DNA from: Sulfurimonas sp.
Lineage (GTDB): Bacteria; Campylobacterota; Campylobacteria; Campylobacterales; Sulfurimonadaceae
Reading direction: 5' to 3'
Length of the DNA: 64,000 nucleotides
NCBI GenBank assembly: GCA_002899765.1
Contig: PPDH01000020.1
Coordinates: forward strand, 1-64,000
The position numbers and the translations under genes are program-made. Below the pieces are notes generated by a model. That model ran no database searches. It was not told the DNA's origin and was given only the letters and a program-made list of their open reading frames with translations. Shown here piece after piece: positions 1-24,253 of the stretch. Each line of letters begins with the position of its first letter. Positions within the stretch are counted from its first letter, which is position 1.

Positions 1-39
1 ATCACGAGCAAATTGCTCTACATCTATTTCTATTTTCAT
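1..39 (-). CDS. Start of a gene leaving the window (partial)
   Basis: An ATG at 37-39 on the minus strand opens a frame beginning MKIEIDVEQFARD that runs off the left edge. An AAGGA Shine-Dalgarno sequence lies about 7 bases upstream. It overlaps the end of the preceding minus-strand gene by some 38 bases, a tight operon arrangement. Only 13 residues are visible, so no function can be given. Confidence 0.5.
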   Translation of the reverse strand, partial: MKIEIDVEQFARD

Positions 40-547
40 GTGTCATTCCTTGAGTAAATATAATTTTACCCGATTGACACGGAATTATGAACGATCCCGC
101 AATTATCCTTTTTGCTTCAGTTTTTAGTTTTTCATTTTTTGATTTTGAATGTTTTTTCAATAAATCATCAGGATAATTTTTGTGTTGCATTAATTGTATT
201 TTTTTGTCATCACTAAAAACATGTCTTCCTTTTTGTTCAAAAACGAAAAACATTGATGATAAAGTTTTTTCACATAGTCTTGCGAAAACATCACCTTCTT
301 GTTTCAACATTAACTTATCTAAAACATCATATGTAATGTTTTCATTTTGTGCTAACATTAATAATGCATGTCCAAAATCATTTTTATCAACTATCTCATG
401 CATAGTTATTTCATTATCAGTTGTCAATAAAGTTTCTAAATCAACTGTCATCTTTTGATTTATTTGTAGTTCAGCTGCTTCAACCCTTTTTCTTCTTGTT
501 CTTTTTTCAACAGCTTTTCTAACCTCCACATCTTCTTCTTTGCTCAT
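2..547 (-). CDS. Hypothetical charged protein, 181 aa
   Basis: I do not recognise this protein. The N-terminus is very rich in Lys, Arg and Glu (a KRTRRKR stretch at about residues 14-20), followed by a predicted alpha-helical region. No membrane segment or catalytic motif is visible. A longer frame starts at 562, but AAGGA at about 557-561 is correctly placed only for the ATG at 545-547, so I use that start. A TATAAT box lies upstream at 575-580. It is transcribed away from the plasmid-like origin and directly into the partial gene at the left edge. In plasmids this place often holds maintenance genes, but nothing in the sequence proves that here. Confidence 0.6.
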   Translation of the reverse strand: MSKEEDVEVRKAVEKRTRRKRVEAAELQINQKMTVDLETLLTTDNEITMHEIVDKNDFGHALLMLAQNENITYDVLDKLMLKQEGDVFARLCEKTLSSMFFVFEQKGRHVFSDDKKIQLMQHKNYPDDLLKKHSKSKNEKLKTEAKRIIAGSFIIPCQSGKIIFTQGMTHENRNRCRAICS

Positions 548-580: not shown

Positions 581-878
581 CAAAAAAAATTTGCTAAAAG
601 CATAGCATCAAGCAAAAAGCTTGATGTGTCTTTAACCGAAAACATTAACAAATCAATTGATTCAATATACATTGTCCTTTCATTGTTTTAGGCACCAAGA
701 TAATTTCAACTGCTTTAAAAGTTCAAGATGGGAATCAGTAAAGTTTATAAAAATATTCATAGAATTCTGACTATTTTTTTCCTTTAAAAAAGATTCTTAA
801 TAAAGATTGTTATTAAGATTATATGAGATATTAACATTCCCCTTAAAGTCCTATTCAGTGGAAATAGAAAGGATTAGA

Positions 879-1001
879 AGCCACGAATTGTGCTAAACAT
901 AGCTATAAAAAGTGTAAACATCAGCCATTTTTTGTGCAAGATTGAGACACTTACAGTGTATTGATGAGCCACAAATAGTGTGCTCAAGCCACTTGTCGTG
1001 T
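879..1001 (+). repeat. Iteron array, six copies, 22-bp period
   Basis: Copies start at 879, 901, 923, 945, 967 and 987 and follow the pattern AGCCA-N6-GTGY. The copies at 879, 923, 967 and 987 match fully. Those at 901 (AGCTATAAAAAGTGT) and 945 (AGACACTTACAGTGT) are one base off in the left half. The first four intervals are exactly 22 bp and the last is 20 bp, about two helical turns, so bound Rep monomers would line up on one face. This is the expected binding array for the initiator encoded at 1189. Confidence 0.85.
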
Positions 1002-1188
1002 GTTTTGTATGTTTTCCAGTAAATATAGATTTAACAGATTGAGATTAAGATTAAGATGAAATTAAGTTAATATTGGATAATATGAATATGTTAATAACCT
1101 TTTTGCTTATTAACATACGATAAAAAAACCAAACTGGCTTAATGCCCTATTAAGGATTTAACAAAAATTAATATCAAAGGAAATAAAA

Positions 1189-2082: not shown

Positions 2083-2151
2083 TATTGCAAAAATCGCATA
2101 GATAAATACTTTGATGCCTTATTACATGATAAAATGTAGGAGGTGTCAGAA

Positions 2152-5100
2152 ATGGTTATTGCAAAAATAAGTGCTGACAAAGCAAAGGAATATTATTACG
2201 AGAAAGATCCACTCTTTAACAAAGATGAAGAAAACAATAATCTCACATGGTTTGGAAAGCAAGCAGAGACGCTGGGCTTAGAGAGTCAAGTATCACAAAA
2301 AGAGTTTGAAAATTTATTAAACGGCAAAAGTGCGGATGGTAAAACTACTTTGCGAGATACAAGTAACGCAACAGGAGATTCTGTTTCGTGCTACGACATG
2401 GCGTTTGCAAGCCCAAAATCCGTTTCTCTGCTGGCGCTTAATGGTGATGAGAGATTAATTGAAGCACACAATAAAGCCGTCACAAAAGCCTTAGAATATG
2501 CCCAAAACAATTTTGCAAATACGCAAGAGGGTGCAAATAGAGAAGATGTAAATCATGGAAATATCTTAGTTGCTCGTGCCAACCACGGTGTAGCAAGAGC
2601 AACCAATAAAATAGATTCTGTACCCGAGATGCACCTACATACCCATGCAGTGGTATTTAATCAAGTCTATAATGCAGAGACGCAAAAATTCAAAGCTCTC
2701 TCGGCACATGAGCTTTTTCAAAATCAAAAAACTCTAAACACAATCTATAAATCAGAATTAGCCAAAGAGATTGTAGCACTTGGATACCAACTCGAAGATA
2801 AGAAGCATGGCTTCGACATCAAGATGGAACAAGAGGTCATAGATAAATTCTCGTCGAGATCAAAAGAGATAGAGGCTCAAACAGTAGGCATGAGCAAAAA
2901 AGAGGAGATGATCACAAAGCATCGCCTCAAATCTGATAAGGTTGATTTCACAGAACAAGAGCTTAGAGAAAATTGGAATAAAAAATTGAATGAAGTTGGT
3001 TACGCAAGTTTTGAGGAGCTAAGAGAATCAGCGCTTGGCAAGACGGATTTTTACTTCAAAGATGCAAAAGAAGCGATAGAAAAAGGCGCAAGGCTACTCG
3101 GTGAAAATGAATCAACTTTTACTAAAAAAGAACTCTTAAATATCTCATCAAAGATTTCTCTCGGTCAGTTTTCTTACAACGATTTAGAAAAAGAGCTGGA
3201 AAAAGTCAAGAGAATAGGGCAAACAGATAGCTATGAGGTCAAGTCTCTTTGCGAAAACGAAAAAGGCGAAAAAATATACACCACAAAAGAGATGCACGAC
3301 ATCGAGAGAGAGAACATAAAGTTGGTTCAAAGTCATACATCGGAAGCGCTTATGAGTCAAAAAGATGCAGTGGAAGCGTTGAGAGATTTTGAGTCAAAGA
3401 ATTTCAAGCTCACAGATGGACAGTTTGAGAGTGCAAAAGCAATTTTATCATCATACGATGGAACACTTGTGATTGAGGGGTATGCAGGTTCTGGCAAAAC
3501 CAGTATGCTAAAAGCTCTCAACCACTCCTTAGAGTATCATAATTCAAAGATAGAAGTCACACTCTTGGCAAATACAAACAAAGCTTCACAAGGAGCTCGG
3601 GAAGAGTCAACTCTTCAAAGCGGAAAGTCATTTGAAGCAAAAACCACCACAAAATTTATCCTCGACTCAAAAAAAGAAAACTCTCATGATAAAACATCAA
3701 CCAAACAGATGGATGCACAAAAGTATGTAACCTCTGGCAAAGATGATTTAAAAGTAGCCACGATAAGTTTAAAAGATGGTTCTCATAAAAATGCCTCTCG
3801 TCAAACTAAAGTAAATGATGGTGCAATCAGAAAAGAGAAGTTGAGTGCCAAAAATGGAGAGACAACCTATAAATCAGAAACGACATTCAAGGATGGCTCG
3901 CAATACTCTTTTCAATCCAAAGAGTCTAACACTAACAGCATGAAAGCAAAGTTTGGAATCAAGCAAAATCAGAGTGAAGCTAAAAATGCAGAGACAAGTG
4001 AACAAACAAAGAGCATAAGTTTTGCAAAAATTGCTTCAATAGAAGAGTCACGCACCATAACAAAAGAGAAAAACAGCAGCTCTATCAAAAAATCTATCTT
4101 CGGTTTCTCTTCAAAAATAACAAACGAAGAGATTAAAGATGATAAAGGAAACATTATTGCCTCTAAAACCACGAAAGAGCTCTTGTTTATGGGTAAATCA
4201 CTAAAGACAGAGATCCTTGCTCAAAGCTCAAAAGATGAGCCAAAGAACAACGATGTCAGGGTGCAAAACTCTTCATTTGACCATAAAACAAAAGAATCAA
4301 GAGAGTCTCAAGCAAGTGCCACTCTAAGCAAAGAAGAGACTCAAAAGATAAGATCCGATGCTTCAAAAAACAATAAAATGATAATCATAGATGAGTCCAG
4401 TATGCTTGGCTCAAAAGATGTAAATGTTATTATGAAGCACGCAAAAGAGAATAATATCAAAGTTGTTTTCATGGGCGACTCAAAACAATTACAATCAATT
4501 TCGGCAGGCAAAGGGCTGGAACAAGTTTCATCCAATAGCAGTGTCATAGAAATGAAAGAGGTACTACGACAACAGAACCCTTCCGAAAAAGAAATAGCCC
4601 ACAACGCAAGAGACACTCAAACATTGGAGAGAACTTTTAAAGAGCTGCATCGTGCAAATAAGATCTACGAAATCAAGGACGAAGCGATAAGGCTCAATGC
4701 AGTTGCCGACTCTGCTGTTAAAATTGAAATACTCAGCGGTACAAATAATAACGGTGCCTTCTCAAAAGAGATAGATTATACAAACAATCTTATTTTAACA
4801 TCACGAAAAGATGATGTCGCAAAGTTGAATGAACTGGTGCGTGATAAACTTCACGAAAGCGGTCAAATCAATAAAAATGATGGCATAGATATGAGAGTAA
4901 AAGTGCCGATAAATATCAGTGCATCAAATCAAGCCATAGCAGACAATTACGAAGTAGGTCAAAAAGTGAGTACCTTTCAAAGCGTTAAAGGGATGGACAA
5001 AGGCAAAGAGTATGAGATTTTAAAGTTAGACAGAAGCACAAATGAGCTTATGTTAAAACATACAAGTAACGCTGGCAAAGAGCAGTTTAGAAAAGTAAAT

Positions 5101-5664
5101 CTAAAAGATGTTGCTGGAAAACTCAGTGTCACAAAAGAGGAGACAAAAAGCTTTACCAAGGGCGACATTGTAGTTGTTACAATCACGGATAAAAAAGAGA
5201 AGTTACTCAACTCAGATCGTGGGATTGTGGTTGGTGTTGATAAAGAGAGATCTATGATGAAAGTTGATTTTGGGAATGGAGATGTGAAGGAGTTGGATAC
5301 TAAAAAGTTGCAAGGGCTGGATCATGCATATGCCGTTACCAATTTTAGAGCACAAGGTGTTTCAATAGAGAGAACTCAAGCACATGTAAATACTGACAAA
5401 GGAACAAACCTCAATGATTTTCATGTGCAAGGAACAAGGCAGAAGTTGAAATCAGAAGTGTTTACGGATGATATAGAGAAGCTAAAATCCCAAGTTGTAA
5501 AAGAGCAAACGAAAACATCAACACTCCAACATGATTTGGTTGAGCCGAAAATACAAAAAATTGAAAATACATCAGACGAAAAAACGGCACTAAAAGATGC
5601 AAAAATCTCGATGGAACAACAAAGAGAGAGTGTTAAAGTTGTTGATGCGGGTCGAGCAAGATAA
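2152..5664 (+). CDS. MobF-type conjugative relaxase-helicase (TrwC/TraI-like)
   Basis: This protein nicks oriT, stays covalently bound to the transferred strand and unwinds the plasmid. The N-terminal relaxase domain has the catalytic tyrosine run Y14-Y16 and the metal-binding triad H161, H163 and H165 (MHLHTHAVVFN). The helicase domain has Walker A GYAGSGKT (443-450), Walker B IIIDESS (D747-E748), GDSKQLQ and a C-terminal NFRAQGVS motif. A GTG at 2143 would give three extra residues but overlaps the AGGAGG ribosome site at 2138-2143, so the ATG at 2152 is preferred. About 298 residues separate Walker A from Walker B, against roughly 70 in TraI-type enzymes. The extra segment is rich in Ser, Lys and Thr. 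The gene is convergent with the coupling-protein gene. Confidence 0.93.
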   Translation: MVIAKISADKAKEYYYEKDPLFNKDEENNNLTWFGKQAETLGLESQVSQKEFENLLNGKSADGKTTLRDTSNATGDSVSCYDMAFASPKSVSLLALNGDERLIEAHNKAVTKALEYAQNNFANTQEGANREDVNHGNILVARANHGVARATNKIDSVPEMHLHTHAVVFNQVYNAETQKFKALSAHELFQNQKTLNTIYKSELAKEIVALGYQLEDKKHGFDIKMEQEVIDKFSSRSKEIEAQTVGMSKKEEMITKHRLKSDKVDFTEQELRENWNKKLNEVGYASFEELRESALGKTDFYFKDAKEAIEKGARLLGENESTFTKKELLNISSKISLGQFSYNDLEKELEKVKRIGQTDSYEVKSLCENEKGEKIYTTKEMHDIERENIKLVQSHTSEALMSQKDAVEALRDFESKNFKLTDGQFESAKAILSSYDGTLVIEGYAGSGKTSMLKALNHSLEYHNSKIEVTLLANTNKASQGAREESTLQSGKSFEAKTTTKFILDSKKENSHDKTSTKQMDAQKYVTSGKDDLKVATISLKDGSHKNASRQTKVNDGAIRKEKLSAKNGETTYKSETTFKDGSQYSFQSKESNTNSMKAKFGIKQNQSEAKNAETSEQTKSISFAKIASIEESRTITKEKNSSSIKKSIFGFSSKITNEEIKDDKGNIIASKTTKELLFMGKSLKTEILAQSSKDEPKNNDVRVQNSSFDHKTKESRESQASATLSKEETQKIRSDASKNNKMIIIDESSMLGSKDVNVIMKHAKENNIKVVFMGDSKQLQSISAGKGLEQVSSNSSVIEMKEVLRQQNPSEKEIAHNARDTQTLERTFKELHRANKIYEIKDEAIRLNAVADSAVKIEILSGTNNNGAFSKEIDYTNNLILTSRKDDVAKLNELVRDKLHESGQINKNDGIDMRVKVPINISASNQAIADNYEVGQKVSTFQSVKGMDKGKEYEILKLDRSTNELMLKHTSNAGKEQFRKVNLKDVAGKLSVTKEETKSFTKGDIVVVTITDKKEKLLNSDRGIVVGVDKERSMMKVDFGNGDVKELDTKKLQGLDHAYAVTNFRAQGVSIERTQAHVNTDKGTNLNDFHVQGTRQKLKSEVFTDDIEKLKSQVVKEQTKTSTLQHDLVEPKIQKIENTSDEKTALKDAKISMEQQRESVKVVDAGRAR

Positions 5665-5693: not shown

Positions 5694-7475
5694 CTATCCA
5701 AAAATCTCACGCATCTCCCTTTTAGGAGGAAGGATAATTCCCATATTCTTGCATAAAATAAGGGGTGGATTGCTCAAACTTTTTCCATCTATCTCTTGAA
5801 TATAAGCAGATTGAATTTTCCCCCACTTCACATCTGGCTGTTTGATAAAAAACTCAAAATCCTTCAACTCCATAATTTCTGATGGCATAACAGTAAACTC
5901 TTTTTTGACATTCTTGTTAAAATTGACTCCGTTTCTGTTGGCGGTAGTGCCAATAGATGCACCTGAGCTTGACTGTTCGATCTCTTTTTCGCCAATCATA
6001 TCAGAGAAGTATTTCGCCATTTCTGGATCTGTTTGTCTCATGATGATTTTATTAGTGAGGGAGTTTAGTATCGATTTTCTCAAATTCTGACCATAAATTT
6101 CATCGATACGAGCAAATTCTTGTGTTGATAAAATAATTGAAAGCCCGAAACTGCGAGCGACAACGATGGCTTCTGGGATGGCTGGAATTTTACCCATAGT
6201 TCCAAACTCATCGAGAAAAAGATAGATTCTTCGATTTGGATTTTCTCCCATTGCATAAATCTCTTTGATGAGTGTGTTCACAAACACTGCAATTTTTGGA
6301 GCATTGAAATCCTTATTCGCTACATCATTAATTAAGAATAGTTTAGAAACCTTCCCATCACTGAGCCACTCTCTGATATTGAAATTATTTTTATGGCTAT
6401 GGCACTTCTCATTGAGCCCCTCAAAGTAAGTTGCATTCGCCGCCAGAGTAACCATAACTGAGCCAACAGTGTTCTCCCCACCTGTAAGAGCTTGAACTCC
6501 TTTATTGCATCCTTCAACGCTATTAAAAAGGTCGATTAAGTCAGCTGGCGTTTTTTGAATCATATCTTTCACAAAAGCTAAAGATGTGTTCTCTGTGAGC
6601 ATACAATAGATAAGAATCGACTCTAAAACATTTCGTGCAAGTACATCCCAAATCGGATCCTTAGAGTTAGAGTCTGGGATAATTGTATGGCATATGTTAA
6701 CCAAAGCTTTTTCATCTAAATTGTCATTTGTATCATGCAGATAATCAAAAAAATTGAAATAGATACTTCGCTCATCTGAAACATTGTATATCAAATCCGC
6801 CTCTGGGTTGTAGATTTTTTGAACATAGTCTGGCTTTAAATCATGGATGATGAACTTGGCACCAACTTCTATATTTTTTGGATGCTTAGCCTGAGCATGA
6901 ATCATTCGTATAATTAGATTAGTTTTACCGCTTCCTGTTGCTCCCATTATCATAAAGTGTTTGGTATCATGTTCTCTTGATAGAACTGTATCTTTTGCGA
7001 TCGCGTATCCATCTATCTCTTTTGAGATGCTGGAATACTCCTTTTGAGTGAGTATTGTTGTGCCTCTAATATGTTTATCTTTGAGCTTTTCTTCAGAATG
7101 TTCATCCGATATTTTTTTGATGATGTACCACGCAACCGTTCCGCTTGCCACAAATCCAATCATGAAATAAAATGATAGATACAAATACATATCAGACATT
7201 TTTGACTCAAGCTGCCGTAGAATATCAGTTGCTAAGATTTCATTTCTATTAATATTTATATGTGTTGAAAGTGTAAACATAGCTCTCGCATAAAGCTTTA
7301 CATCTTCGTAACTCAACGGCAAACTTTTTTCAAAACTGTTAACAATAAAAAGCAAGACCACAATACCACCTGCAATTGCAACAAGTAGATTAAGGATGAT
7401 TAGGGGTGCAGAAAGCACGATGGAGTTTTGCAACAGATTGTATTTTTCGTAAACGCTATATTGCTGTTTTCTCAT
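5694..7475 (-). CDS. Type IV coupling protein (TrwB/TraD-like)
   Basis: This inner-membrane ATPase brings the relaxosome to the type IV secretion channel. The 593-aa protein has two N-terminal membrane segments (about residues 18-46 and 96-118). Walker A GATGSGKT is at 178-185 and Walker B LFLDEFG at D422-E423, with a TraD/TraG-like C-terminal region. A longer frame to 7490 would need a TTG start inside the ribosome site. GGGAGG at 7483-7488 fits the ATG at 7475. Its ATGA overlaps the stop of the upstream gene, so the two are probably translationally coupled. The order RHH-like gene, unknown gene, coupling protein, then convergent relaxase is R388-like in content. Confidence 0.93.
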   Translation of the reverse strand: MRKQQYSVYEKYNLLQNSIVLSAPLIILNLLVAIAGGIVVLLFIVNSFEKSLPLSYEDVKLYARAMFTLSTHININRNEILATDILRQLESKMSDMYLYLSFYFMIGFVASGTVAWYIIKKISDEHSEEKLKDKHIRGTTILTQKEYSSISKEIDGYAIAKDTVLSREHDTKHFMIMGATGSGKTNLIIRMIHAQAKHPKNIEVGAKFIIHDLKPDYVQKIYNPEADLIYNVSDERSIYFNFFDYLHDTNDNLDEKALVNICHTIIPDSNSKDPIWDVLARNVLESILIYCMLTENTSLAFVKDMIQKTPADLIDLFNSVEGCNKGVQALTGGENTVGSVMVTLAANATYFEGLNEKCHSHKNNFNIREWLSDGKVSKLFLINDVANKDFNAPKIAVFVNTLIKEIYAMGENPNRRIYLFLDEFGTMGKIPAIPEAIVVARSFGLSIILSTQEFARIDEIYGQNLRKSILNSLTNKIIMRQTDPEMAKYFSDMIGEKEIEQSSSGASIGTTANRNGVNFNKNVKKEFTVMPSEIMELKDFEFFIKQPDVKWGKIQSAYIQEIDGKSLSNPPLILCKNMGIILPPKREMREIFG

Positions 7476-7912
7476 AATATAACCTCCCAAACACTGTCAA
7501 TTTGAGTAATATTTTTGGCAGTCGCCTTATCCAAAATATTACCTGACTTTAAGAGCGGATATTTTTGCACGATAATTTCATCATTTTTTACTTCTTTTAC
7601 AAGCCAAGCTTTTTGTGATTTATCTATTATTAAATCTAAAATTTGATATTTGGAGAAGTCAGAAACATCAAATTTGGCTCTTTGAAGAAAGAAGGGCTTG
7701 TAGGTTGTGTCAGTGCGATAAGTATTTTTGATGTCTTCAAAATCCTTTATCTCGATCTTTTCATAATCTGGGATTCTAACTGCTGTCACAACATTAACAT
7801 GTGCACCAGTCACAAAATAGCTGATCATCTTAGCATCCTCAATGATATCAGTTGGTTCAATATCCAAAAACTTTTTTACTCGTATTTTTCTGTAAACATC
7901 ATCTATTTTCAT
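7472..7912 (-). CDS. Unknown 146-aa protein in the DNA-processing operon
   Basis: I do not recognise this protein. It is soluble in appearance, acidic and basic residues are mixed, and there is no signal peptide, Cys motif or nucleotide-binding motif. Its position is telling. It overlaps the MobC/TrwA-like gene by 4 bp upstream (7909-7912) and the coupling protein by 4 bp downstream (7472-7475), so all three are made as one coupled set. I infer a role in the relaxosome or its docking to the coupling protein. R388 itself has no gene between trwA and trwB. Confidence 0.75.
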   Translation of the reverse strand: MKIDDVYRKIRVKKFLDIEPTDIIEDAKMISYFVTGAHVNVVTAVRIPDYEKIEIKDFEDIKNTYRTDTTYKPFFLQRAKFDVSDFSKYQILDLIIDKSQKAWLVKEVKNDEIIVQKYPLLKSGNILDKATAKNITQIDSVWEVIL

Positions 7913-8202
7913 CTTGTACCTCGTAACCTCTCTTGAATGGAAACTAAAATTTCCTTCATCTCTTTAAGCTCCAAGAGCACTAAACTATCTATTGCTTGCC
8001 CAATATGCCACTCAATAGAGTGACTAATTTCACGGTTTTGGGCATCAAATTTATTATTGATAAGCTCCAAAACTTTATATTGCTCAAGCATTCTTTGTCG
8101 GAATAACTGTATTTTTTGAAGCCCTGTGGATTCAACGACCTCATTAAATTGCTCTGCTTCTGCATGGGTTAAATAGAATCCTACTGTTCGTTTTTTACGC
8201 AT
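7909..8202 (-). CDS. Probable relaxosome accessory protein (MobC/TrwA-like)
   Basis: This is a 97-aa protein. Its N-terminus, RTVGFYLTHAEAEQFNEVVE, followed by an amphipathic helix fits the strand-helix-helix start of ribbon-helix-helix or MobC-type DNA-binding proteins. The remainder is helical with a possible coiled coil near the C-terminus. Such proteins bind oriT, help the relaxase nick and often repress the transfer operon. The gene starts about 25 bp from the predicted oriT hairpin, as trwA does in R388. The family call rests on length, fold pattern and position rather than on a diagnostic motif. Confidence 0.65.
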   Translation of the reverse strand: MRKKRTVGFYLTHAEAEQFNEVVESTGLQKIQLFRQRMLEQYKVLELINNKFDAQNREISHSIEWHIGQAIDSLVLLELKEMKEILVSIQERLRGTR

Positions 8203-9635: not shown

Positions 9636-12600
9636 ATGTTAATAGACAACAAAAGAAATAACAAACTCGGTGATGTGATAAAGTCTCATATAAAGACAAA
9701 CTCTAACGCATCCATTGTTACAAACCATTTCACGATTCACGCCTATGAAGAACTAAAAAAAGAACTTCGTAAAATTAAAAATATAAGAATTATTTGTAGT
9801 GCTTCAAATTTCAAAAACGACATCAACCTTTTATCTTCGGAACAAGAGGAGATAAAATTAAAAAATAGTTTAAATCAGACTAAAATTGCTAAAGAGTTCG
9901 CTCAGTTTTTAGAGCATCATGCGCAAATCAAAGAAACAACATCTGCAAATACAATCCCTTTTAATTTTTATCACATTAAAAATGAAGATGGAAGCGACAT
10001 AGCTATTCAGGGAAGCTCAAATTTTTCATCAACTGGGCTTGGTTATACCACTTCAAAATCATTTAACATGAACACCGCTATGTTTGACCATGAAAGCACC
10101 AATTCTTTTTTAAAAACATTTGATGAAATTTGGGAGAACAACACGCTCCTTAGAGATATAAAAGAGAAATTACTCTCAAATTTAGAAGAGATCTACAAAG
10201 ATAAATCCCCACAATTTCTGTACTTTATGACGCTTTACAATATTTTTAAAGATTTTATTGGCGAACTTGATGAAGAGAAGATTATAAAAACAAAAACCGG
10301 CTTTAAAGACAGTGTTGTTTGGAGTAAACTTTATAACTTCCAAAAAGATGGTGTTCTTGGTGCAATAGAGAAGCTTGAAAAGTATAATGGCTGTATCATA
10401 GCCGATAGCGTTGGACTTGGTAAAACATTTGAGGCTCTTGCCGTCATAAAATATTATGAACTTAGAAACGATAGAGTTTTGGTTCTTGCTCCAAAAAAGC
10501 TAAAAGAAAATTGGACGATTTACACAATCAATGACAAAAGAAATATTCTCTCAGAAGATAGACTAAACTATGATGTTTTAAATCATACAGATTTAACAAG
10601 AGTAAATGGTTACAGCGGAGAGATAAATTTAGCAACACTCAACTGGTCAAACTATGATCTTATAGTCATAGACGAGTCGCACAATTTTAGAAACACAAGC
10701 ACAAATAAAAAGAAGAGTAAATCAAGATATGCGACACTTTTAGATGATGTTTTAAAAAAGGGTGTTAAAACAAAAGTATTGATGCTCTCGGCTACGCCAG
10801 TAAACAACAGATTAAACGACCTTAAAAATCAAGTCGCATTCATCACGGAAGCTAATGATGAAGCTTTTAAAGATGTGGGCATAAAATCTATTGATACAAC
10901 ACTCAGAAAGTCGCAAGCCAAATTTAATAGCTGGCTTAAACTAAGTGAAAGTGAGCGAACAACAAAAAAGCTGCTCGATAGTCTGAATTTTGATTATTTT
11001 AAACTACTTGACTTAATAACCATAGCACGAAGCAGAAAACATATTCAAAAGTATTATGATACAACAAGCATAGGCAGGTTTCCGCAGAGGAATAAGCCGA
11101 TAAATCTAAAACCAGACATTGACACCTTAAACGCATTTCCTCCACTTTTAGAGATAAATAAAACCATAAGAAGACTCACTCTGTCTGCTTATTCGCCACT
11201 AAAATATGTCTATCCACATAAACAAGAAGAGTATTCCCACAAATACGACATTGACTTGGGCAATGGTCAAGTTTTTAAACAGATAGATAGAGAGAACTCT
11301 TTGATTCATTTGATGCGAGTAAACCTCTTTAAGCGGATGGAGAGCTCTATCAACTCTTTTTCGCTAACGCTTATAAAGTTGATGCAAAACAATCAAAAAA
11401 TTGTTGATATGCTGGAAAGTGAAAATGGAACCTATGAAGAGCAAAGCATTATAGATGTTGATATTGAGAGCGATGAGTTTGCTTCTCAGCTTGTTGGCAA
11501 TAAAATCAAAGTATTGATTCAAGATGTGGATAAAATCAGATGGAAGCAAGATTTACAAAACGATTTGCAAAAACTTGAAGAGCTTTTAGGAAGTTCTCTA
11601 CAAGTCGATGCAAAAAGGGATGAAAAACTTCAAACTCTCAAAGAGAACATCACTAAAAAAATAAACAATCCACTAAACCCAAACAATAAAAAAGTTGTCA
11701 TATTTACTGCATTTGCAGATACCGCTGAGTATCTCTACAAAAATATCGCTTCATGGGCAAAAAATGAGTTTGGCTTAGAGAGTTGTCTTGTCACTGGAAG
11801 TGGAAACAACCAAACAACTATGCCCACAAAAAGCAAAGACCTCAATTCACTTCTTACGCACTTCTCGCCTATCTCAAAAAGCAGAGATAAAACAGATCCA
11901 CATGCCACAAAAGAGATAGATATTTTAATTGCAACAGATTGTATCAGCGAAGGACAAAACCTACAAGATTGTGATTACCTTGTAAACTATGACATCCACT
12001 GGAATCCAGTGAGAATTATTCAGAGATTTGGAAGAATTGACAGACTTGGAAGCAAAAACGAAACAATTCAGCTTGTAAACTTTTGGGCGAACATGGAACT
12101 TGATGAGTATATAAACTTAGAGAGTAGAGTTAGCGGACGCATGGTGCTTTTGGATGTATCGGCAACTGGAGAAGAAAATATAATTGATACCTCAAACAAA
12201 GAGGTGAGTGACTTGAGTTACAGAGCCAAACAGCTCAAAGAGCTTCAAAACAAAGTGATAGATCTTGAAGATGTAAGCGGTGGTATTTCTATCACTGATT
12301 TAACTTTAAATGATTTTAGAATGGACTTGATGGAGTATCTAAAAACCCACAAAGAAAAGCTTGAAAATGCACCTCTTGGCATTCATAGCATCGTTTCAGA
12401 TGCACTTGAAAAAGGCGTGGTATTCTGCATAAAATCACTTAAACCACAAACTGGTGCAGATGGATTTTCTCTTGAGCCTTATTTCTTGGTGCATGTAGAT
12501 AAAGACAATGAAGTTAGAGCTACATTTAGCAGCGCAAAACTCATTTTAGATATGTATAAAAACCTATGTTTAGGCAAAGATGAAGCCATAAAAGAGCTTG

Positions 12601-12806
12601 TAACACAGTTTGAAAAAAAGACAAACAACTACTCCGACATGCAGCACTACCAAAGAGGTTTAAAAGTTGCCATAGAGAGCGTTATCGGCAAAAAAGAGGA
12701 GAGTGGCATGGACTCGCTTTTTAGTCGTGGTGGTACGAGCATATCAACTGATGGCTTTAGTGATAGTGAAGATTTTGAACTTATATCTTTTTTAGTGATA
12801 GAGTAG
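9636..12806 (+). CDS. PLD-like plus SNF2-type helicase, defence protein
   Basis: This 1056-aa protein combines an N-terminal phospholipase-D-like module (HIK at about residue 112, GSSNFSSTGLG at about 128) with a full SNF2-class helicase. Walker A is DSVGLGKTFE near residue 257, motif II DESHNF near 346, motif III LSATPVNN, and motif VI QRFGRIDRLGS near 795. A single HKD-like motif would need a dimer for catalysis. Proteins of this design occur in anti-phage loci, often next to a DUF4391 gene. The stop TAG is followed directly by the ATG of the next gene, so this is the first gene of a coupled operon. The ribosome site is weak. The start at 9636 is used because the ATG at 9628 runs into a stop. 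Confidence 0.85.
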   Translation: MLIDNKRNNKLGDVIKSHIKTNSNASIVTNHFTIHAYEELKKELRKIKNIRIICSASNFKNDINLLSSEQEEIKLKNSLNQTKIAKEFAQFLEHHAQIKETTSANTIPFNFYHIKNEDGSDIAIQGSSNFSSTGLGYTTSKSFNMNTAMFDHESTNSFLKTFDEIWENNTLLRDIKEKLLSNLEEIYKDKSPQFLYFMTLYNIFKDFIGELDEEKIIKTKTGFKDSVVWSKLYNFQKDGVLGAIEKLEKYNGCIIADSVGLGKTFEALAVIKYYELRNDRVLVLAPKKLKENWTIYTINDKRNILSEDRLNYDVLNHTDLTRVNGYSGEINLATLNWSNYDLIVIDESHNFRNTSTNKKKSKSRYATLLDDVLKKGVKTKVLMLSATPVNNRLNDLKNQVAFITEANDEAFKDVGIKSIDTTLRKSQAKFNSWLKLSESERTTKKLLDSLNFDYFKLLDLITIARSRKHIQKYYDTTSIGRFPQRNKPINLKPDIDTLNAFPPLLEINKTIRRLTLSAYSPLKYVYPHKQEEYSHKYDIDLGNGQVFKQIDRENSLIHLMRVNLFKRMESSINSFSLTLIKLMQNNQKIVDMLESENGTYEEQSIIDVDIESDEFASQLVGNKIKVLIQDVDKIRWKQDLQNDLQKLEELLGSSLQVDAKRDEKLQTLKENITKKINNPLNPNNKKVVIFTAFADTAEYLYKNIASWAKNEFGLESCLVTGSGNNQTTMPTKSKDLNSLLTHFSPISKSRDKTDPHATKEIDILIATDCISEGQNLQDCDYLVNYDIHWNPVRIIQRFGRIDRLGSKNETIQLVNFWANMELDEYINLESRVSGRMVLLDVSATGEENIIDTSNKEVSDLSYRAKQLKELQNKVIDLEDVSGGISITDLTLNDFRMDLMEYLKTHKEKLENAPLGIHSIVSDALEKGVVFCIKSLKPQTGADGFSLEPYFLVHVDKDNEVRATFSSAKLILDMYKNLCLGKDEAIKELVTQFEKKTNNYSDMQHYQRGLKVAIESVIGKKEESGMDSLFSRGGTSISTDGFSDSEDFELISFLVIE

Positions 12807-13538
12807 ATGCAAGAGCTTATAGACAATCTCGGCTTAGAAGCTTCAAGCAAGATAGGCAAGAAACTTTTTAAAAAACAGTTTATAGAGAATTTTTCTCTTA
12901 GCGTTGCCGATAAAAAGATACTCACAAATGATATTGAGAGTATAACTCTTGAATATTTACTCAACAAGAGCACCATAAATATCGCTCCATACATAGATGC
13001 AGAGCTGGACTATTCAGAAATAGCATTTATCAAAGTTGAGATACTCAACCAAAACAAATTGGGGCAAATAACAAGCATAGTTCAAAATATCCCTTATCCA
13101 CTCATAATATTTTTGACTTATGGAACTAAACTCTGTATTAACATAAGTCCAAAACGCATCAACAAAGCTGATAGCAGTAAACTTGTAGTCGAAGAGAGTT
13201 TTTTAACAGAGTGGATAGATCTCTCGAACAGCACAAAAATAGAAAACGATTTTTTAGAGAGTCTTAAAGCAAAGCATCATCCATTTACTGACCTTTTATC
13301 TTTTTATAGGAGCTATTTAGATAAACTAATAGCTTTTAATGCTTCAAAGTATAGTGGGAGTTTAAATACGCATGAGCAAAGTAGAGAGCTTTTACAGGAC
13401 ATCCAAAAACTTGAAGTAAAAATAGCCGAGATAAAAGGCAAAATCAAAAAAGAGTCTAACTTTAGCGATAAGGTAAAAATGAATATAGAATTAAAAAAAT
13501 CGAGTGATGAGTTGGAAAAATTGAAAGGAAGCTTATAA
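12807..13538 (+). CDS. DUF4391-family protein
   Basis: The 243-aa protein begins MQELIDNLGL and shows the DUF4391 pattern: an early helix, the central strands QIPYPLIIFLTYG-like (here IPYPLIIFLTYGTKLCINISPKR), a WIDL segment and a C-terminal coiled coil (about residues 195-243, rich in Lys, Glu and Leu). The biochemical role of this family is unknown to me. It is regularly found beside SNF2/PLD helicases and type III-like Mod/Res genes, as here. It starts immediately after the helicase stop and overlaps the next small frame by TAATG. Confidence 0.75.
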   Translation: MQELIDNLGLEASSKIGKKLFKKQFIENFSLSVADKKILTNDIESITLEYLLNKSTINIAPYIDAELDYSEIAFIKVEILNQNKLGQITSIVQNIPYPLIIFLTYGTKLCINISPKRINKADSSKLVVEESFLTEWIDLSNSTKIENDFLESLKAKHHPFTDLLSFYRSYLDKLIAFNASKYSGSLNTHEQSRELLQDIQKLEVKIAEIKGKIKKESNFSDKVKMNIELKKSSDELEKLKGSL

Positions 13539-13645
13539 TGATAATCTCAAAGAATTTCAACTCGAGGTTGATACAGCCAAATATCTTGAACGATTCGGCA
13601 CCCTTTGAGGAGTGGCGTAATTATACATTAGGTTTACTTAGATGA
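13538..13645 (+). CDS. Coupled 35-aa ORF, likely damaged PemK antitoxin
   Basis: An open frame of 35 codons starts in a TAATG overlap with the DUF4391 gene (AAGGAA 8 bases upstream) and ends in an ATGA overlap with the PemK-type toxin. Its last part, APFEEWRNYTLGLLR, looks natural. Its middle does not. In the next frame, 13537-13605 reads NDNLKEFQLEVDTAKYLERFG, which looks far more like protein. The likely history is an antitoxin with one base lost near the start and one gained near 13600, keeping the overall frame open. Antitoxin identity is inferred from position alone. Confidence 0.45.
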   Translation: MIISKNFNSRLIQPNILNDSAPFEEWRNYTLGLLR

Positions 13646-14046
13646 AAGATTTTGATAAGTGGAATGAAGTTAAAAAAGATACCGAGTTAGATACAAGAAA
13701 GATAGGTATTAAACCACGAGAAATATTTTGGGCAAAACTTGGCGAAAATGTTGGCTTTGAACAAAATGGTAAAGGTGAAAATTTTGCACGACCTGTAATT
13801 GTCGTGAGAAAACTAACAAGTGAGCTATTTTTGGGTATTCCACTTACAAGCACAATTAAAGAGGGTAATTATTTTCATGCTTTTGAATATACAAATCATT
13901 CAAATGGAATCGTACAAAATACAGCACTGATACTGCAAATAAAAGTTTTTAGTATCAGAAGACTAATGAATAAAACTGGTATGGTAAAAGAAGAAGACTT
14001 TAAGGCGATTATAGAAAAATCAAAGGGATTATTTAGCCCCACTTGA
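13642..14046 (+). CDS. PemK/MazF-family toxin
   Basis: This 134-aa protein matches the PemK/MazF endoribonuclease pattern. It has an N-terminal extension (DFDKWNEVKK), then KPREIFWAKLGENVG, then ENFARPVIVVRKL, FLGIPLTS, and NTALILQIKVFSIRRLMNKTGMV. MazF-type toxins cut RNA in the SH3-like barrel formed by these strands. It lies inside the defence operon, between DUF4391 and mod, and its start overlaps the preceding damaged ORF by ATGA. Related toxins are often carried as passengers in restriction loci. An 8-bp hairpin overlaps its stop codon. Confidence 0.85.
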   Translation: MKDFDKWNEVKKDTELDTRKIGIKPREIFWAKLGENVGFEQNGKGENFARPVIVVRKLTSELFLGIPLTSTIKEGNYFHAFEYTNHSNGIVQNTALILQIKVFSIRRLMNKTGMVKEEDFKAIIEKSKGLFSPT

Positions 14047-14057
14047 AAACAAGTGGG
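14038..14057 (+). repeat. 8-bp inverted repeat over the toxin stop codon
   Basis: CCCACTTG-AAAA-CAAGTGGG is a GC-rich perfect stem with a 4-nt loop, and the toxin TGA lies within it. No T-run follows. It is probably an RNA stem that limits read-on or protects the transcript, not a full terminator. Confidence 0.5.
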
Positions 14058-14142
14058 TGTGCCCGAAGGCGAATTAGAAAGACAGTATAACAAAAAAATA
14101 ATAAATATATAATAAATTAAATCTTAAAAAGGTAATTTAAGC

Positions 14143-15972
14143 ATGAAACCATTAGACGGCAAGAGTTTAGACATAGTGAGCCAAAACATAGAAAAAATCA
14201 AAGAGCTCTTTCCAGAAGTATTTAGCGAGGGCAAAATAAACTTTGCTAAACTTCAAGAGGAGTTGGGTGCATTTGCGGAGGATGAAGCAGAGCGTTACAA
14301 CTTTACATGGGCAGGAAAAACCGAAGCCAAACGCATCGCTCAAACTCCAAGCACGGGGACACTGCGACCTTGCAAAGAAGAGAGTAAAGATTGGGATACT
14401 ACACAAAACCTCTACATTGAGGGCGATAACTTAGAGGTGCTCAAACTCCTTCAAAAAAGCTACCACAAGCAAGTCAAGATGATTTACATCGACCCGCCTT
14501 ACAACACAGGCAAAGATTTTGTCTATAAAGACAACTTCAAAGACAATATCAAAAATTATCTTGAAATTACTGGGCAAGTAGATAGTGAGGGAAACCGTCT
14601 AAGCACCAACAGCGACACAAACGGAAGATACCACAGCGACTGGCTAAACATGATGTACCCACGCCTCAAACTTGCACGAAATCTGCTCAAAGATGATGGG
14701 GTTATTTTTATATCTATTGATGATAATGAAGTTGTAAATTTGCGAAAACTTTGCGATGAGATATTTGGAGAAGAATGTGTTGAACAATATATTTGGGATG
14801 TCAGAGAAGATGGAACAATGCCAAAAACAGCAAAAAACACAGTTAGAAAAGAACACGAATACTTACTTGTTGCTTTTAAAAATACTGCTCATCAAAGATT
14901 AAAAAAATATACATCCTACAAGTATATAGATAACAATTGGAGTAATATTGACAATGATTCAAGAGGTGGATGGATGTCTGCAAATATTTCAAGAGGCAGT
15001 GGTGAAGGTTCTGGTGGAAGCAAATCATTTACTATTACAAATCCAAAAGGAATTGAGTTTTATAGAGATTGGTCAATTAATGAAGAAGAATACTATGAAC
15101 TTTTAAAAGATAACAGAATCTATTTTGCCGACAATGGTAATGGTGTTCCGAGAAGAAAAATATTTCAAAATGAACCTGTTGATTCTATTCAATAATCAAT
15201 TTTTGAAAAACTACAAAGCTCACAGTCTGCATCAAAAGAAGTTCAAGACTTGGTTGGAAGAATTGAATTTGATTATCCAAAACCTGAAAAATTGATAAAC
15301 AGAATACTACAGATAAGTTGTGATAAAGACGGTATAGCTCTCGACTTCTTTAGCGGTTCAGCGACAACAGCTCATGCAGTAATGAAACTCAATGCCGAAG
15401 ATGGAGGCAATAGAAAATTTATCATGGTTCAGCTACCAGAAGAAACAAATAATAAAATTTTTCCTACAATTTGTGAAATAGGCAAAGAACGCATCCGCCG
15501 TGCAGGGGAAAAGATTAAAACAGACAATGCAGACAAAGACCTCTCAAACCTCGATATAGGCTTTAAAGTCCTAAAACTCGATAGCTCAAATATTAAAACA
15601 TGGGATAGCAACTTTGAGAACTTAGAACAAAATCTTCTTGAAGCAATAGAAAATATCAAAAACGACAGAACACCACAAGACCTACTCTACGAAATCCTCC
15701 TAAAATATGGACTGGACTTAACTCTGCCGATAGAAGAAAAAACTTTGCATGGTAAAAAAGTATTTGTCATAGGCTATGGAGCTTTGATTGTCTGCCTCGA
15801 TGATGAGATAACATTAGAAGTAGTAGAGGCAATAGCAAAACTAAAAGACGAGTACAAAAGTGAAATCACCAGAGTAGTATTCAAAGACAGCAGTTTTGAG
15901 AACGCAGTGGTAAAAACAAACGCCTTACAAGTGCTAAAACAGTTTGAGATTGATGAAGTTGTGAGTATATAA
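14143..15972 (+). pseudogene. mod: Type III-like adenine methyltransferase Mod, one in-frame stop
   Basis: This is a beta-class N6-adenine DNA methyltransferase. Catalytic motif IV DPPYNTG is at residues 117-123, and the SAM-binding FxGxG-like motif DFFSGSATT is near 401. It normally gives both modification and target recognition to a Res partner. The frame is open from 14143 to 15972 (609 codons) except for TAA at 15193-15195 (codon 351). The reading frame continues unchanged on both sides (DSIQ, stop, SIFEKLQSSQSASKEVQDL). The stop falls between the two motifs, in the recognition region, so neither half should methylate. AAAAGG precedes the ATG. It may be a sequence error or real decay. Confidence 0.88.
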
Positions 15973-15984
15973 AGTAGAAATGAG

Positions 15985-17166
15985 ATGATATATAAATTTA
16001 AAACCGAACAGGCTGGAATTGGATTTGATTTTGATGTGGAGTTTGAGCAAAATCAAAAAGTAAATTGTATTATTGGTAAAAATGGTATTGGTAAAACGCA
16101 ACTTTTGGAAAATATGATAAAAAGTTTGATTTATAGACATTCTATGTTTTTAAATAGTGGTGAGTATAAATACAAAAATCTTTTTATGCAAAAAAATATT
16201 CTTGAAAAGACAAAAGAACTGGAATTAAAACTTCCATTAGAGATTGAGTTAAATGGTATTCAGATAAAAAATAAAGAGAGACAAAACTGGGGTTATACAA
16301 CTTTTGAACATATTGCTGGAAACAGAGATAATTCTTTTGTATGTGATAATCCAATAGTTTTCATAGGTGCGAAAAATAGAGGATTTACAAAAAATATTAA
16401 TCCTGACAATATCAAAATACTTGGAAGTTCACAAGATAGATTTGTAGAATCTATTAAAAGAACGATGAGCTATATTAACGGTGATGGCTTAGAACATGAA
16501 GAGATAGCAAATTGGTTTGTATCAAGACTTATTGTAAATCCAAATTTTGTTATAGCTAATCAAAATAAGACAAATGAAGTTGTTGCAGTTTTAAAGCTTA
16601 TAGAAAAACTTGAACCATCGTTAAAACTTGTAATACCAAATGAAAATGGTGTAAACAGCTTATCAATGCTTTATCATGATGGACAGTTGTTGCTAAATAA
16701 TATCCCATTAAATAGGCTCTCAACAGGGTTTGTTTCGATAGTAAAAATCTTTCAAGAGATAATTGCTGGATATGGTGGATGGAGTAATCTTGATGATTTA
16801 AGCTTGGTGGATGGCATCGTATTTATCGATGAGATAGAAGCACATTTGCATATCAGTTGGCAGACAAAGATTATTAATATCTTAAAAGAGTTCTTCCCAA
16901 ATACTACATTTTATATCTCAACTCATTCGCCTCTTGTTTTAGCAGGACTTAAAGATGGTGAGGCTTATGAATTATACAAAGATGGTGATTTTGTAAAGAC
17001 AAAAGCTATAATAAATGTTGATAACTATGCTTTAAATGACATTGTGAATGAGTTTTTTGGAGTGGATTTAAATAAACAGAAGATTGAGCATCCAAATTTA
17101 GAAAAACAAAAAAAAGCACGAGCATTACTATTGAACCTTACAAAATCTCTTGATGGAGATGAGTAA
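15985..17166 (+). CDS. ABC/OLD-like AAA ATPase of a defence module
   Basis: This 393-aa protein has the features of AAA_21/OLD-type ATPases. Walker A IGKNGIGKT is at residues 30-38, the ABC-like signature LSTGF is in the centre, Walker B VFIDEIEAH has D282-E283, and the switch motif is YISTHSPLVLAG. No nuclease (TOPRIM) domain follows, so the nuclease is probably the next gene. It begins 12 bp after mod and ends in a TAATG overlap with the PIN gene. In such pairs the ATPase senses infection or DNA ends and controls a toxic partner. That role is inferred here. Confidence 0.88.
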   Translation: MIYKFKTEQAGIGFDFDVEFEQNQKVNCIIGKNGIGKTQLLENMIKSLIYRHSMFLNSGEYKYKNLFMQKNILEKTKELELKLPLEIELNGIQIKNKERQNWGYTTFEHIAGNRDNSFVCDNPIVFIGAKNRGFTKNINPDNIKILGSSQDRFVESIKRTMSYINGDGLEHEEIANWFVSRLIVNPNFVIANQNKTNEVVAVLKLIEKLEPSLKLVIPNENGVNSLSMLYHDGQLLLNNIPLNRLSTGFVSIVKIFQEIIAGYGGWSNLDDLSLVDGIVFIDEIEAHLHISWQTKIINILKEFFPNTTFYISTHSPLVLAGLKDGEAYELYKDGDFVKTKAIINVDNYALNDIVNEFFGVDLNKQKIEHPNLEKQKKARALLLNLTKSLDGDE

Positions 17167-17591
17167 TGAAATACTTTTTTGATACAAATGTAATAAGTAA
17201 TTTGGTTCGAGAAGATAGTGCAGCAATAATTAAACTTCAAGAATTAGCTTCAAATGAAGAGAATAGATTCTATATAAATAGATTAGTTTTTATGGAATCT
17301 TTAAGGGCTATACCTTTGAATCGTGTAAACCTTTATAAAAATACAAAAGAAACACTTGAAAATTTTGAAAAACTTGAAATCACCCAAGATATATATGATA
17401 AAAGTGTAAATTTTGCCAGATTTTGCAAAAGTCAAGGTATGAATTTTGGAAAATGTGAAGCAATTGATTATATTCATTTTGTGACGGCTAAATACTATGA
17501 TTTAGAGATAATCTCTTTTGATGGTGATATGAGCAAACTTGAAGAAAAGTATCAAGCATTTTTGGAAGATGTTAGTTTTGAAGATAAATAA
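17166..17591 (+). CDS. PIN-domain ribonuclease
   Basis: The 141-aa protein has the PIN fold signature: FFDTN with D6 at the N-terminus, E44 in VFMESLR, D101 in AIDYIHFVTAKYYDLEIIS, and D119/D121 in FDGD. These four acidic positions would bind the metal ions for RNA cleavage. PIN proteins include VapC toxins, but no VapB-like antitoxin gene is next to it. Instead it is translationally coupled (TAATG) to the ATPase, which suggests that the ATPase restrains or activates it. The next gene starts 6 bp downstream. Confidence 0.82.
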   Translation: MKYFFDTNVISNLVREDSAAIIKLQELASNEENRFYINRLVFMESLRAIPLNRVNLYKNTKETLENFEKLEITQDIYDKSVNFARFCKSQGMNFGKCEAIDYIHFVTAKYYDLEIISFDGDMSKLEEKYQAFLEDVSFEDK

Positions 17592-17597
17592 CTTATA

Positions 17598-18716
17598 ATG
17601 GAACACTACTTTACAGAATGTTTTTTACTGATTGATAAAATATATATAGATTTTTATAATTGGGCAAAAAATAGTATTTTTTATTATCAGTTTTTTTTAT
17701 CAATAGTATCTGCTATAATTTTTTGGCTTGTATTTTCACATATTCCAGAGAGCAAAAAATATAAAAGTTTGCGTCCTATAGTAGAACTGGATATGTATCA
17801 AATCTATAGTAGTTTATTTCATCTATTTGATTTAATTATGCGATATAAAGATGCAAGTCCATCTTTTTTTCAAGAAAAAATACGCGGTGGAACATTATCT
17901 CGTAATGATATTAAATTAGGTCTTCAAAATAAATGTCTAAATGCAAGTTATTTGTTTGACCCTAAAATTAGCCACTTGCTAATGCCGATAGGTGAGCAAA
18001 TATTTGAATCTTCTAAAAAAATTGAACAATTGATAGATAAAATCTTTAGTTTCAATCAATTTTCCTCTCCCATAGAACTTTTATTACTTGAAAAAATTCG
18101 TCAAGAATTGAAAAAATATGATTATGACGAACGGAGAATAAAAGAAAATGCTGTATCAGTTACTGGCTTTCCATCAGTTCCAGTAATTTACTATCGTGAA
18201 GAGAATTTTTATGATTTGTATAAATTGTTTATCGAACTTCAAGATATAGTTTTAAATAGAAATAACTATTTTGATAGAAATATTTTTATTTTTAAAATTC
18301 AATATTTATTTTATTCTGGGCAATATCAGCAATGCATCAATCATATCAATAAAAACCGTAATTACTTTTCTGAAGATATTAATTTTTCGCAAAATTATTA
18401 CGCATTATGTCAGTATCAAATAGACAATAAAAAAGAGTTCTATAAAACAATAGATAATATATATAAAGAACGCCCATACAATGGTAGTTTAGTATCATCA
18501 AGAAGTTTTTTAAAAGATTTTACAGAAGATGAAAAACTTATAAATATTCTCAAAAAATATTATACTGAAGAAGAGTATGAATATTTTAAAGTAACTATAG
18601 AGCAAGAAAAAGAACATTTTGATTTATTTATGAATACCAATAGGTCATTATCAAAATATCATGCAAATAAAGATTTTAGGTTAATACCCATAGAAGATGG
18701 AGAAAACAAATTATGA
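17598..18716 (+). CDS. Membrane-anchored protein of unknown function
   Basis: I do not recognise this 372-aa protein. A single strong membrane segment lies at about residues 22-44 (FFLSIVSAIIFWLVF). The remainder looks cytosolic and helical, rich in Tyr, Phe, Asn and Lys, with a TPR-like stretch at about 245-300 (YLFYSGQYQQCINHINKN). No catalytic motif is seen. It is markedly more AT-rich than mod or res, which suggests a separate origin. It starts 6 bp after the PIN gene and overlaps res by ATGA (18713-18716). A third member of the ATPase-PIN module is the best guess. Confidence 0.75.
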   Translation: MEHYFTECFLLIDKIYIDFYNWAKNSIFYYQFFLSIVSAIIFWLVFSHIPESKKYKSLRPIVELDMYQIYSSLFHLFDLIMRYKDASPSFFQEKIRGGTLSRNDIKLGLQNKCLNASYLFDPKISHLLMPIGEQIFESSKKIEQLIDKIFSFNQFSSPIELLLLEKIRQELKKYDYDERRIKENAVSVTGFPSVPVIYYREENFYDLYKLFIELQDIVLNRNNYFDRNIFIFKIQYLFYSGQYQQCINHINKNRNYFSEDINFSQNYYALCQYQIDNKKEFYKTIDNIYKERPYNGSLVSSRSFLKDFTEDEKLINILKKYYTEEEYEYFKVTIEQEKEHFDLFMNTNRSLSKYHANKDFRLIPIEDGENKL

Positions 18717-22277: not shown

Positions 22278-22487
22278 ATGTTTGAATTACTAAATAAAAA
22301 ATATAATAGATTATTTTTAACAAAAAAAGAGTTGGCTAATGAGCTTAATATAAGTGCAGCAACGCTGAACAGACAATTGAAGTCTGATACGCTTAATATT
22401 GGATATACAGTTATCGGTGGACAATACAGATTTTCTTTAAAATCTTTAGCAAACTATTTAGAAGCTGTTGAAATGATGGTTCCATAA
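22278..22487 (+). CDS. Excisionase/AlpA-like DNA-binding protein
   Basis: This 69-aa protein is essentially one helix-turn-helix (LTKKELANELNISAATLNRQLK at about residues 14-35) followed by a short wing, the size and layout of excisionase or AlpA-type regulators. It ends 10 bp before the integrase gene and is likely cotranscribed with it. It would bend DNA at the attachment site or control integrase expression. The two upstream palindromes probably regulate it. Confidence 0.7.
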   Translation: MFELLNKKYNRLFLTKKELANELNISAATLNRQLKSDTLNIGYTVIGGQYRFSLKSLANYLEAVEMMVP

Positions 22488-22497
22488 GGGAGTTAAA

Positions 22498-23760
22498 ATG
22501 GCAAAATTAGAAAAAACAAGATATCCATCTGTTTATAAGAGGGTAGGAATTAACGATACAAGTTTTATTATAAAGTATAAAATTGCAGGCAAATTAAATG
22601 AAGAAGTTGCAGGTAAAGAATCTGATGGTATGACTGCAAAAAAAGCTTCGGAAATTTTAGATGTAAGAAAAAATCATAATCTTGATAAAAAAGTTGAAGT
22701 TGCAAATTCTGTAAAAGCTAAAAAAAGTTTCCAAAATTTGGCTAAATCATATTTTGATAATTTATATTTAGAAGCGAATGAAGAATCAGAAGTTGAAGAT
22801 AGAGAAAAAAAGAAGAAAACATCCAAAAATATAAAAAGGGAAGAAAGCGTTTATAAAAAATTCTGGGGAGACTGGAATTTAAAAATGTTGCCAATTGCAA
22901 AAATAAGACAAGAGCAAGTTTTAAAACATATTAATTCAAAAAAGAGTGCTTACAGCGATAAATCAATTTATAATGCGTTAACAGTTGCTAAAAGCATTAT
23001 GAAGCACACAGCAAAAGAGCATAGTGATTTGAATAACCCTTTTATGATTGATGAATATAAAAAAGCAAAAAAGAATAACAATAGAAAAGAGTATTTGACA
23101 CAAAGTCAATGCTCTATGTTATTAAATCATTTAAGGGATTGTAGCACTTTTAAAAACTATGTTCTTGTGCTAACAAGTTTAATGACAGGCGCAAGACCGA
23201 ATTCTGTTCTGACATTAAAAGTTGAAGACATTGATTTCAGAAAAAATGAAATTAAATTTTATGATTATAAGCGTAAAATGCCATACTATTCAAAGATTAC
23301 AAAAGAGCTTACTCTTAACTTAAAAAAGCAAGTTGAAGATCTTAAAAGACAAAATTATGTGTTTTTTAATGATGATCCAAGTGTCGCATATTCTTCTTAT
23401 CCATCATCTATTCAAACTGTTTTGGATAAATTGTTTAATGCAGAAAAAAATGAGGATGAAGAGAGAATAGTACCGTACACATTAAGACACACTTTTGCAA
23501 ACTTATTGCTACAAGTGCATAAAGTACCAGTATTTGAAGTCTCGCAACTTTTAAATCATGCGAATATTTCAACAACTATTGATCACTATATTACTTTTAA
23601 TCACGATTTAGTTGTTAAAGATCTGAATCATTTTGAAAATGCAATTACTCAAAATCATGTAACAGCAGAAGAGTTGTTAATAGATAATTTAAAAGATTTT
23701 GATCTTGATGATGATGTTATTTTAAAAATTATAGATAGAGTAAAAAAGCTTGCTATATAG
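22498..23760 (+). CDS. int: Tyrosine recombinase integrase of the element
   Basis: This 420-aa site-specific recombinase has an N-terminal arm-binding and SAM-like core-binding region (to about residue 195). The catalytic domain has R233 (TGARPNSVL), R330-H331 (YTLRHTF), H354 (LLNHANIS) and nucleophile Y364 (DHYI). Y327 stands where many relatives have the first His of HxxR. GGGAG precedes the ATG. It ends 257 bp before the tRNA-fMet fragment that marks the element boundary, as expected for an integrase next to its attachment site. Confidence 0.93.
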   Translation: MAKLEKTRYPSVYKRVGINDTSFIIKYKIAGKLNEEVAGKESDGMTAKKASEILDVRKNHNLDKKVEVANSVKAKKSFQNLAKSYFDNLYLEANEESEVEDREKKKKTSKNIKREESVYKKFWGDWNLKMLPIAKIRQEQVLKHINSKKSAYSDKSIYNALTVAKSIMKHTAKEHSDLNNPFMIDEYKKAKKNNNRKEYLTQSQCSMLLNHLRDCSTFKNYVLVLTSLMTGARPNSVLTLKVEDIDFRKNEIKFYDYKRKMPYYSKITKELTLNLKKQVEDLKRQNYVFFNDDPSVAYSSYPSSIQTVLDKLFNAEKNEDEERIVPYTLRHTFANLLLQVHKVPVFEVSQLLNHANISTTIDHYITFNHDLVVKDLNHFENAITQNHVTAEELLIDNLKDFDLDDDVILKIIDRVKKLAI

Positions 23761-23845: not shown

Positions 23846-23878
23846 GGTTGGGTATTTACCCAACCGATTTACCCAACC
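23846..23878. repeat. Inverted and direct ACCCAACC repeats after int
   Basis: GGTTGGGT-ATTT-ACCCAACC is a perfect 8-bp inverted repeat, and ACCCAACC occurs a third time at 23871-23878, followed by TTTT. It may end int transcription, or serve as integrase or excisionase arm sites near the attachment core. The remaining 200 bp of this gap shows no gene. Confidence 0.5.
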
Positions 23879-24016
23879 TTTTCCTATACTTTTATGATAA
23901 AACTTGCTAAAAAGTGATAAATTATTAAAGAAAAAATAGGATGTATGAATGCTTGTAAATGCCTATATTGTGTGGTTTTTAGGGTGTTTAAGATTTGAAT
24001 GTGATTTTGTAAGAAA

Positions 24017-24058: not shown

Positions 24059-24081
24059 ACATACCTATAAATAGGGGTTTG

Positions 24082-24176: not shown

Positions 24177-24253
<77 letters not shown>

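Follow-up and report, generated by a model that had tools for sequence, protein, structure and literature searches.

A putative plasmid-type iteron origin and initiator gene in a chromosomal element integrated at tRNA-fMet in Sulfurimonas

Replication of an integrated element after its excision has been described for SGI1 (Salmonella genomic island 1), in which the excised form does not replicate unless both rep and the iteron-containing oriV are present, and replication destabilises the helper plasmid (PMC7433901). Rep_3 initiators were listed for SGI1 and BcenGI2 in a 2017 review, which recorded a MobF relaxase in no known canonical integrative and mobilizable element (IME; PMC5704250). SGI1 targets trmE, requires AcaCD of IncC plasmids and has four GC-rich iterons of 17 bp, which lie downstream of rep. 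In Rep_3 iteron plasmids (the F mini-replicon with RepE, R6K, Acinetobacter RepM), a Rep WH1-WH2 protein follows 22-bp-scale iterons and AT-rich DNA. Among islands integrated in tRNA genes, most displace a 3' fragment of the target; the Islander collection holds 3760 of these and 159, out of 3919, with a 5' fragment (PMC4383910).

The element described here lies in a window of 64,000 nucleotides (the whole stretch of DNA analysed, from an uncultured Sulfurimonas related to Campylobacter). It resembles SGI1 in being an integrated mobilizable island with a tyrosine integrase and in having an iteron oriV next to a Rep of its own that belongs to the Rep_3 superfamily (PMC5704250), and an HTH_17 gene is likewise found in the SGI1 mobility/replication region (PMC7433901). 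Unlike SGI1, it has a tRNA-fMet target, six iterons at 22/20-bp spacing upstream of rep, and a MOB_F relaxase plus its own coupling protein, with no known helper; no SGI1-type genes were recognised by Pfam among the scanned proteins, and the target is tRNA-fMet rather than trmE or dusA. The arrangement of Rep, iterons and AT-rich DNA is that of the Rep_3 plasmids, but the replicon resides in an integrase-bearing chromosomal element, and a search of PLSDB for a free plasmid form returned none, the best Rep identity being at most 33% among the matches listed. The displaced tRNA fragment is a 5' one with an anticodon-arm crossover, as in the smaller class of tRNA islands. On this anatomy the element most likely works as SGI1 does, without being a member of the SGI1 family. 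With it, IMEs that carry a plasmid-type replicon gain a second setting, one beyond Gammaproteobacteria, and a MOB_F relaxase is added, the type absent from known canonical IMEs in the 2017 review (PMC5704250).

Six AGCCA-N6-GTG units, each matching 7 or 8 of the 8 fixed bases, begin at positions 879, 901, 923, 945, 967 and 987 (array 879-1000, + strand). The preliminary description had placed six units on an exact 22-bp period; all six are present, but 22 bp fits only five of them, as four spacings of 22 bp are followed by one of 20 bp. Chains of units spaced 20-23 bp apart reached at most three units in 20,000 Markov-shuffled copies of 561-1189, compared with the six observed, and the remainder of the window outside the array yielded chains of at most two. 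A whole-genome search with a two-unit pattern matched the array only, and the reversed control gave 0 matches. The iterons are therefore real and far beyond chance. They lie within an AT-rich (27.5% GC) conserved putative oriV region at 695-1188 (+), 5' of rep, delimited by an alignment with a sister element (below) that runs from position 695 into rep. A search for DnaA boxes gave no convincing one, just TTATTAACA sites with one mismatch, which are poorly conserved.

The other side of the putative origin is occupied by an ORF of no assigned function (99-562, - strand; ORF 2-562, no Pfam match), which is truncated by an insertion sequence that contributes its last codons. Positions 1-98 (-) are the end of this insertion sequence, which is presumed to be IS256-like (IS256/Mutator transposases). 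The repeat is common to at least seven contig ends, including those of C2, C9, C10, C33, C40 and C44, and a full 1.3-kb copy (C44:1-1306, L123:1-1306) contains a 400-aa ORF beginning MKIEIDVEQFARD. Since base 1 of the window is also base 1 of its contig (C8) and lies inside this repeat, the left portion of the element is lacking, and 1-24017 covers only a part of it. The IS flanks did not bridge the gap at C8:1: the 8-bp C8 flank matched none of the three right flanks found. An 8-bp target duplication of the IS256-like element (GAATATGA) ties C40 to C27.

Downstream of the iterons, as had been noted, is a full plasmid initiator gene. The intact rep (1189-2082, +) encodes a 297-aa Rep_3 protein that is RepE/RepM-like (Pfam PF01051 and PF21205; Rep3_N E 8e-15, Rep3_C E 3e-12); its NCBIfam RepM/RepE scores fall below the cut-offs. 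Its WH1 and WH2 domains score 55.9 and 47 bits against curated cut-offs of 22.4 and 21.1, and its PDB matches are 1rep and relatives. This is the only Rep_3 gene in the genome assembly. Across 149 relatives and 399 genomes from the order, the sole close match was in a Campylobacterales MAG from Lake Pavin (G068, JAPLGO010000038.1; 70% identity over the best segment, 64% full-length); the remaining matches were at most 35% identical and mostly from small contigs. G068 alone was recovered from the genome contigs collection, and no relative was found in viral contigs.

The G068 element, the best relative, is complete at 26.7 kb and shares a backbone of rep, six iterons, MOB_F relaxase, TraD, small genes and ArdC. 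A disrupted rep in relatives, which the preliminary description had named as counter-evidence, is not what this relative contains: its rep is intact (64% identical over the aligned length) and is preceded by six iterons in the same direction with the identical spacing of 22, 22, 22, 22 and 20 bp. Within the array, 41 of 48 motif columns are identical between the two elements versus 47 of 79 other columns (Fisher p 0.003). The dN/dS of Rep against its G068 counterpart is about 0.21, an approximate value because dS is near 1.2, and the corresponding values are 0.12 for the relaxase and 0.10 for TraD; a ratio of about 0.2 indicates that purifying selection acts on Rep. The G068 integrase and site are different, the element being flanked by a dinB/umuC-like gene on one side and an endonuclease IV locus on the other, with TATACAC repeats. 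Because iterons, spacings and an intact Rep are kept despite the different integrase and site, the replicon has outlasted swaps of the integration module.

These comparisons bear on whether the replicon still functions. The element could be a former mobilizable plasmid captured by an integrase, its replicon a leftover that is non-working or rarely used; the replicon, MOB_F relaxase and coupling protein do look plasmid-derived, two different integration modules are found on one backbone, and the IS interrupts a gene near the origin. A decaying replicon would not be expected to keep an intact Rep under purifying selection together with iterons and spacing in two elements at different sites, and we regard this explanation as unlikely. 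Iterons can also titrate Rep (handcuffing), and Rep and its iterons might serve for control, through incompatibility or interference with another replicon, rather than for copying of the element itself. The effect of SGI1 replication on its helper plasmid (PMC7433901) would be in keeping with such a role, but this genome contains no other Rep_3 replicon to interfere with; we consider a control function very improbable. Replication after excision is the best explanation of the conserved anatomy: the element, by its sequence a chromosomal island with a complete-looking plasmid origin and initiator gene, can probably copy itself plasmid-like once excised.

At the other end of the element, the integrase and adjacent tRNA half noted in the preliminary description were both found. 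A 420-aa tyrosine integrase is encoded at 22498-23760 (+; PF00589 E 4e-19; PHROG 1 integrase E 2e-36), and directly 5' of it is a small HTH_17 gene (22278-22487, +; PF12728 30.9 bits, cut-off 27; PHROG 66 excisionase/regulator E 3e-5) that is a candidate excisionase. The nearest integrase elsewhere is 37% identical and adjoins a tRNA-Gly. Downstream, at 23854-23923 (+), are candidate arm-type repeats ATTTACCCAACC at 23854 and 23867 and a block common with the presumed other end (C8 23867-23923 versus C27 45122-45064, 85%). The element/host junction is a 43-bp 5' half of an initiator tRNA at 24018-24060 (-), followed by host tRNA-Gln (24082-24156) and an intact tRNA-fMet1 (24177-24253), both on the - strand and called by ARAGORN. 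Four relatives (G004, G011, G036, G015) contain an intact, empty fMet1-Gln-fMet2 array, and the homology of C8 to these arrays ends exactly at 24017. Thus the second fMet gene was the one hit, and 24018-24060 is a displaced host piece of fMet2. The sequence places the crossover in the anticodon arm of this second tRNA-fMet gene of the host fMet-Gln-fMet array.

The junction on the integrase side is clear; the far end is assigned to C27 across an assembly gap. The 3' half of tRNA-fMet2 is absent from C8; elsewhere in the genome there is just one further copy, a complete tRNA-fMet at C27:45164-45241. This gene has one SNP in its 5' half, its 3' half resembles fMet2 of relatives, and its 3' flank resembles fMet2 of two relatives; its 5' flank is element-like, with an upstream block resembling C8:23867-23923. 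Together these features suggest that the other end of the element is probably on C27, where the tRNA is restored, and fit an element that brings along a 5' half of the tRNA with which the gene is rebuilt at the opposite end. The stretch between C8:1 and C27:42382 was looked for and not found. In relatives, fMet2 is followed by cbiX-type genes, which made C2 a candidate for the far flank; it was rejected, as no tRNA 3' half is present on C2.

Read naively, C27 would contain a 32-kb element extending from dinB to tRNA-fMet. This reading was rejected and the contig is probably chimeric: the first 99 bp of C14 overlap it exactly, and C14 carries the integrase and right end of a dinB-site element, as in G068. 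The identity covers C14:1-99 and C27:42382-42480, beyond which the sequences diverge, and this is the mark of an assembly-graph branch. C27 would accordingly consist of the left portion of the dinB element fused to the right end of the fMet element, with true recombination between the two elements a possible alternative. The dinB element is a second integrated element in this genome, with its left end at C27:13270, its right end at C14:3790-3838 and a G068-type integrase (regions L013:13270 to 20000, L014 and L011:1-7380 on C27; L106:1-3838 on C14). The G068 element occupies the same dinB site and is flanked on either side by the same host genes. The second element encodes a relaxase of its own, which is divided between two ORFs, and its own coupling protein; its ArdC gene is 91% identical to the copy at the tRNA end of C27, and its integrase differs from that of the fMet element. 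It contains no Rep_3 gene. Just within the dinB-site element of both genomes is a conserved HTH_17 protein (L013:13377-13862 and L100:9418-9924), perhaps an excisionase or regulator.

The fMet element carries mobilization genes downstream of rep. A MOB_F (TrwC/TraI-type) relaxase-helicase (2143-5664, +; TrwC E 1e-55; NF041492 MobF 183 bits, cut-off 100) is 85% identical to its G068 counterpart, and a TraD/TrwB-type coupling protein (5694-7490, -; PF10412 E 4e-68) is 86% identical. Two small backbone genes without Pfam match follow (7472-8202, -; 82-86% identical in G068). The readable part of the element, whose left part is missing, yielded no T4SS gene, and no partition gene was recognised there. 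Because a relaxase and coupling protein were found and T4SS genes were not, "integrative and mobilizable" appears to fit better than "integrative conjugative". Of the earlier proposal of an integrated plasmid or integrative conjugative element, the evidence is good for an integrated element bearing a plasmid-type replicon, but "conjugative" is not well supported. A self-transmissible element with its T4SS genes in the missing left part is conceivable, given that the contig ends inside the element. The complete 26.7-kb G068 element, with the same backbone, contained no T4SS gene among its scanned predicted proteins, and the likely far end (C27 42382-45163) has only ArdC-type and small genes; we consider self-transmission improbable.

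Taking anatomy and conservation together, we favor, as a fairly probable reading, an IME integrated in tRNA-fMet that excises, replicates by Rep and iterons, is mobilized and re-integrates. The integrase, aided by the HTH_17 protein, would excise the element as a circle. Rep would then bind the six iterons at 879-1000, melt the adjoining AT-rich DNA and start theta replication, by which the excised form would be kept and its copy number raised. The MOB_F relaxase and the TraD-like coupling protein would deliver it to a recipient via the mating pore of another element, where it would re-integrate into tRNA-fMet, the element supplying the 5' half and so making the gene whole again at the other end. 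The excision, replication and transfer steps are predictions from anatomy and conservation. More tentatively, the two replicon-bearing elements could represent a Campylobacterota family in which the plasmid core (iteron origin, Rep, MOB_F relaxase, coupling protein) stays constant while integration modules and sites are swapped, and which lives by turns as a replicating plasmid and as an island in the chromosome; its fMet version would replace the 5' half of the initiator tRNA and hence its upstream promoter region. Retention of the core while the integration module is exchanged supports a thin line between plasmids and integrated elements.

The restriction and toxin genes of the element would be passengers. 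The cargo block (9636-21322, +) encodes a PLD/HKD-SNF2 helicase, DUF4391, a PemK/MazF-like toxin, a type III restriction-modification system, a PtuA-like ATPase and a PIN protein; the G068 cargo includes a type I system instead. In the type III system res (18713-21322) is intact, while the methyltransferase gene mod (14143-15972) is divided by an in-frame TAA at 15193-15195 and looks nonsense-interrupted, as both of its ORFs share one frame. Within the same operon, at 15985-17591, the PtuA-like ATPase gene is followed by the PIN-domain gene, a possible additional defence pair.
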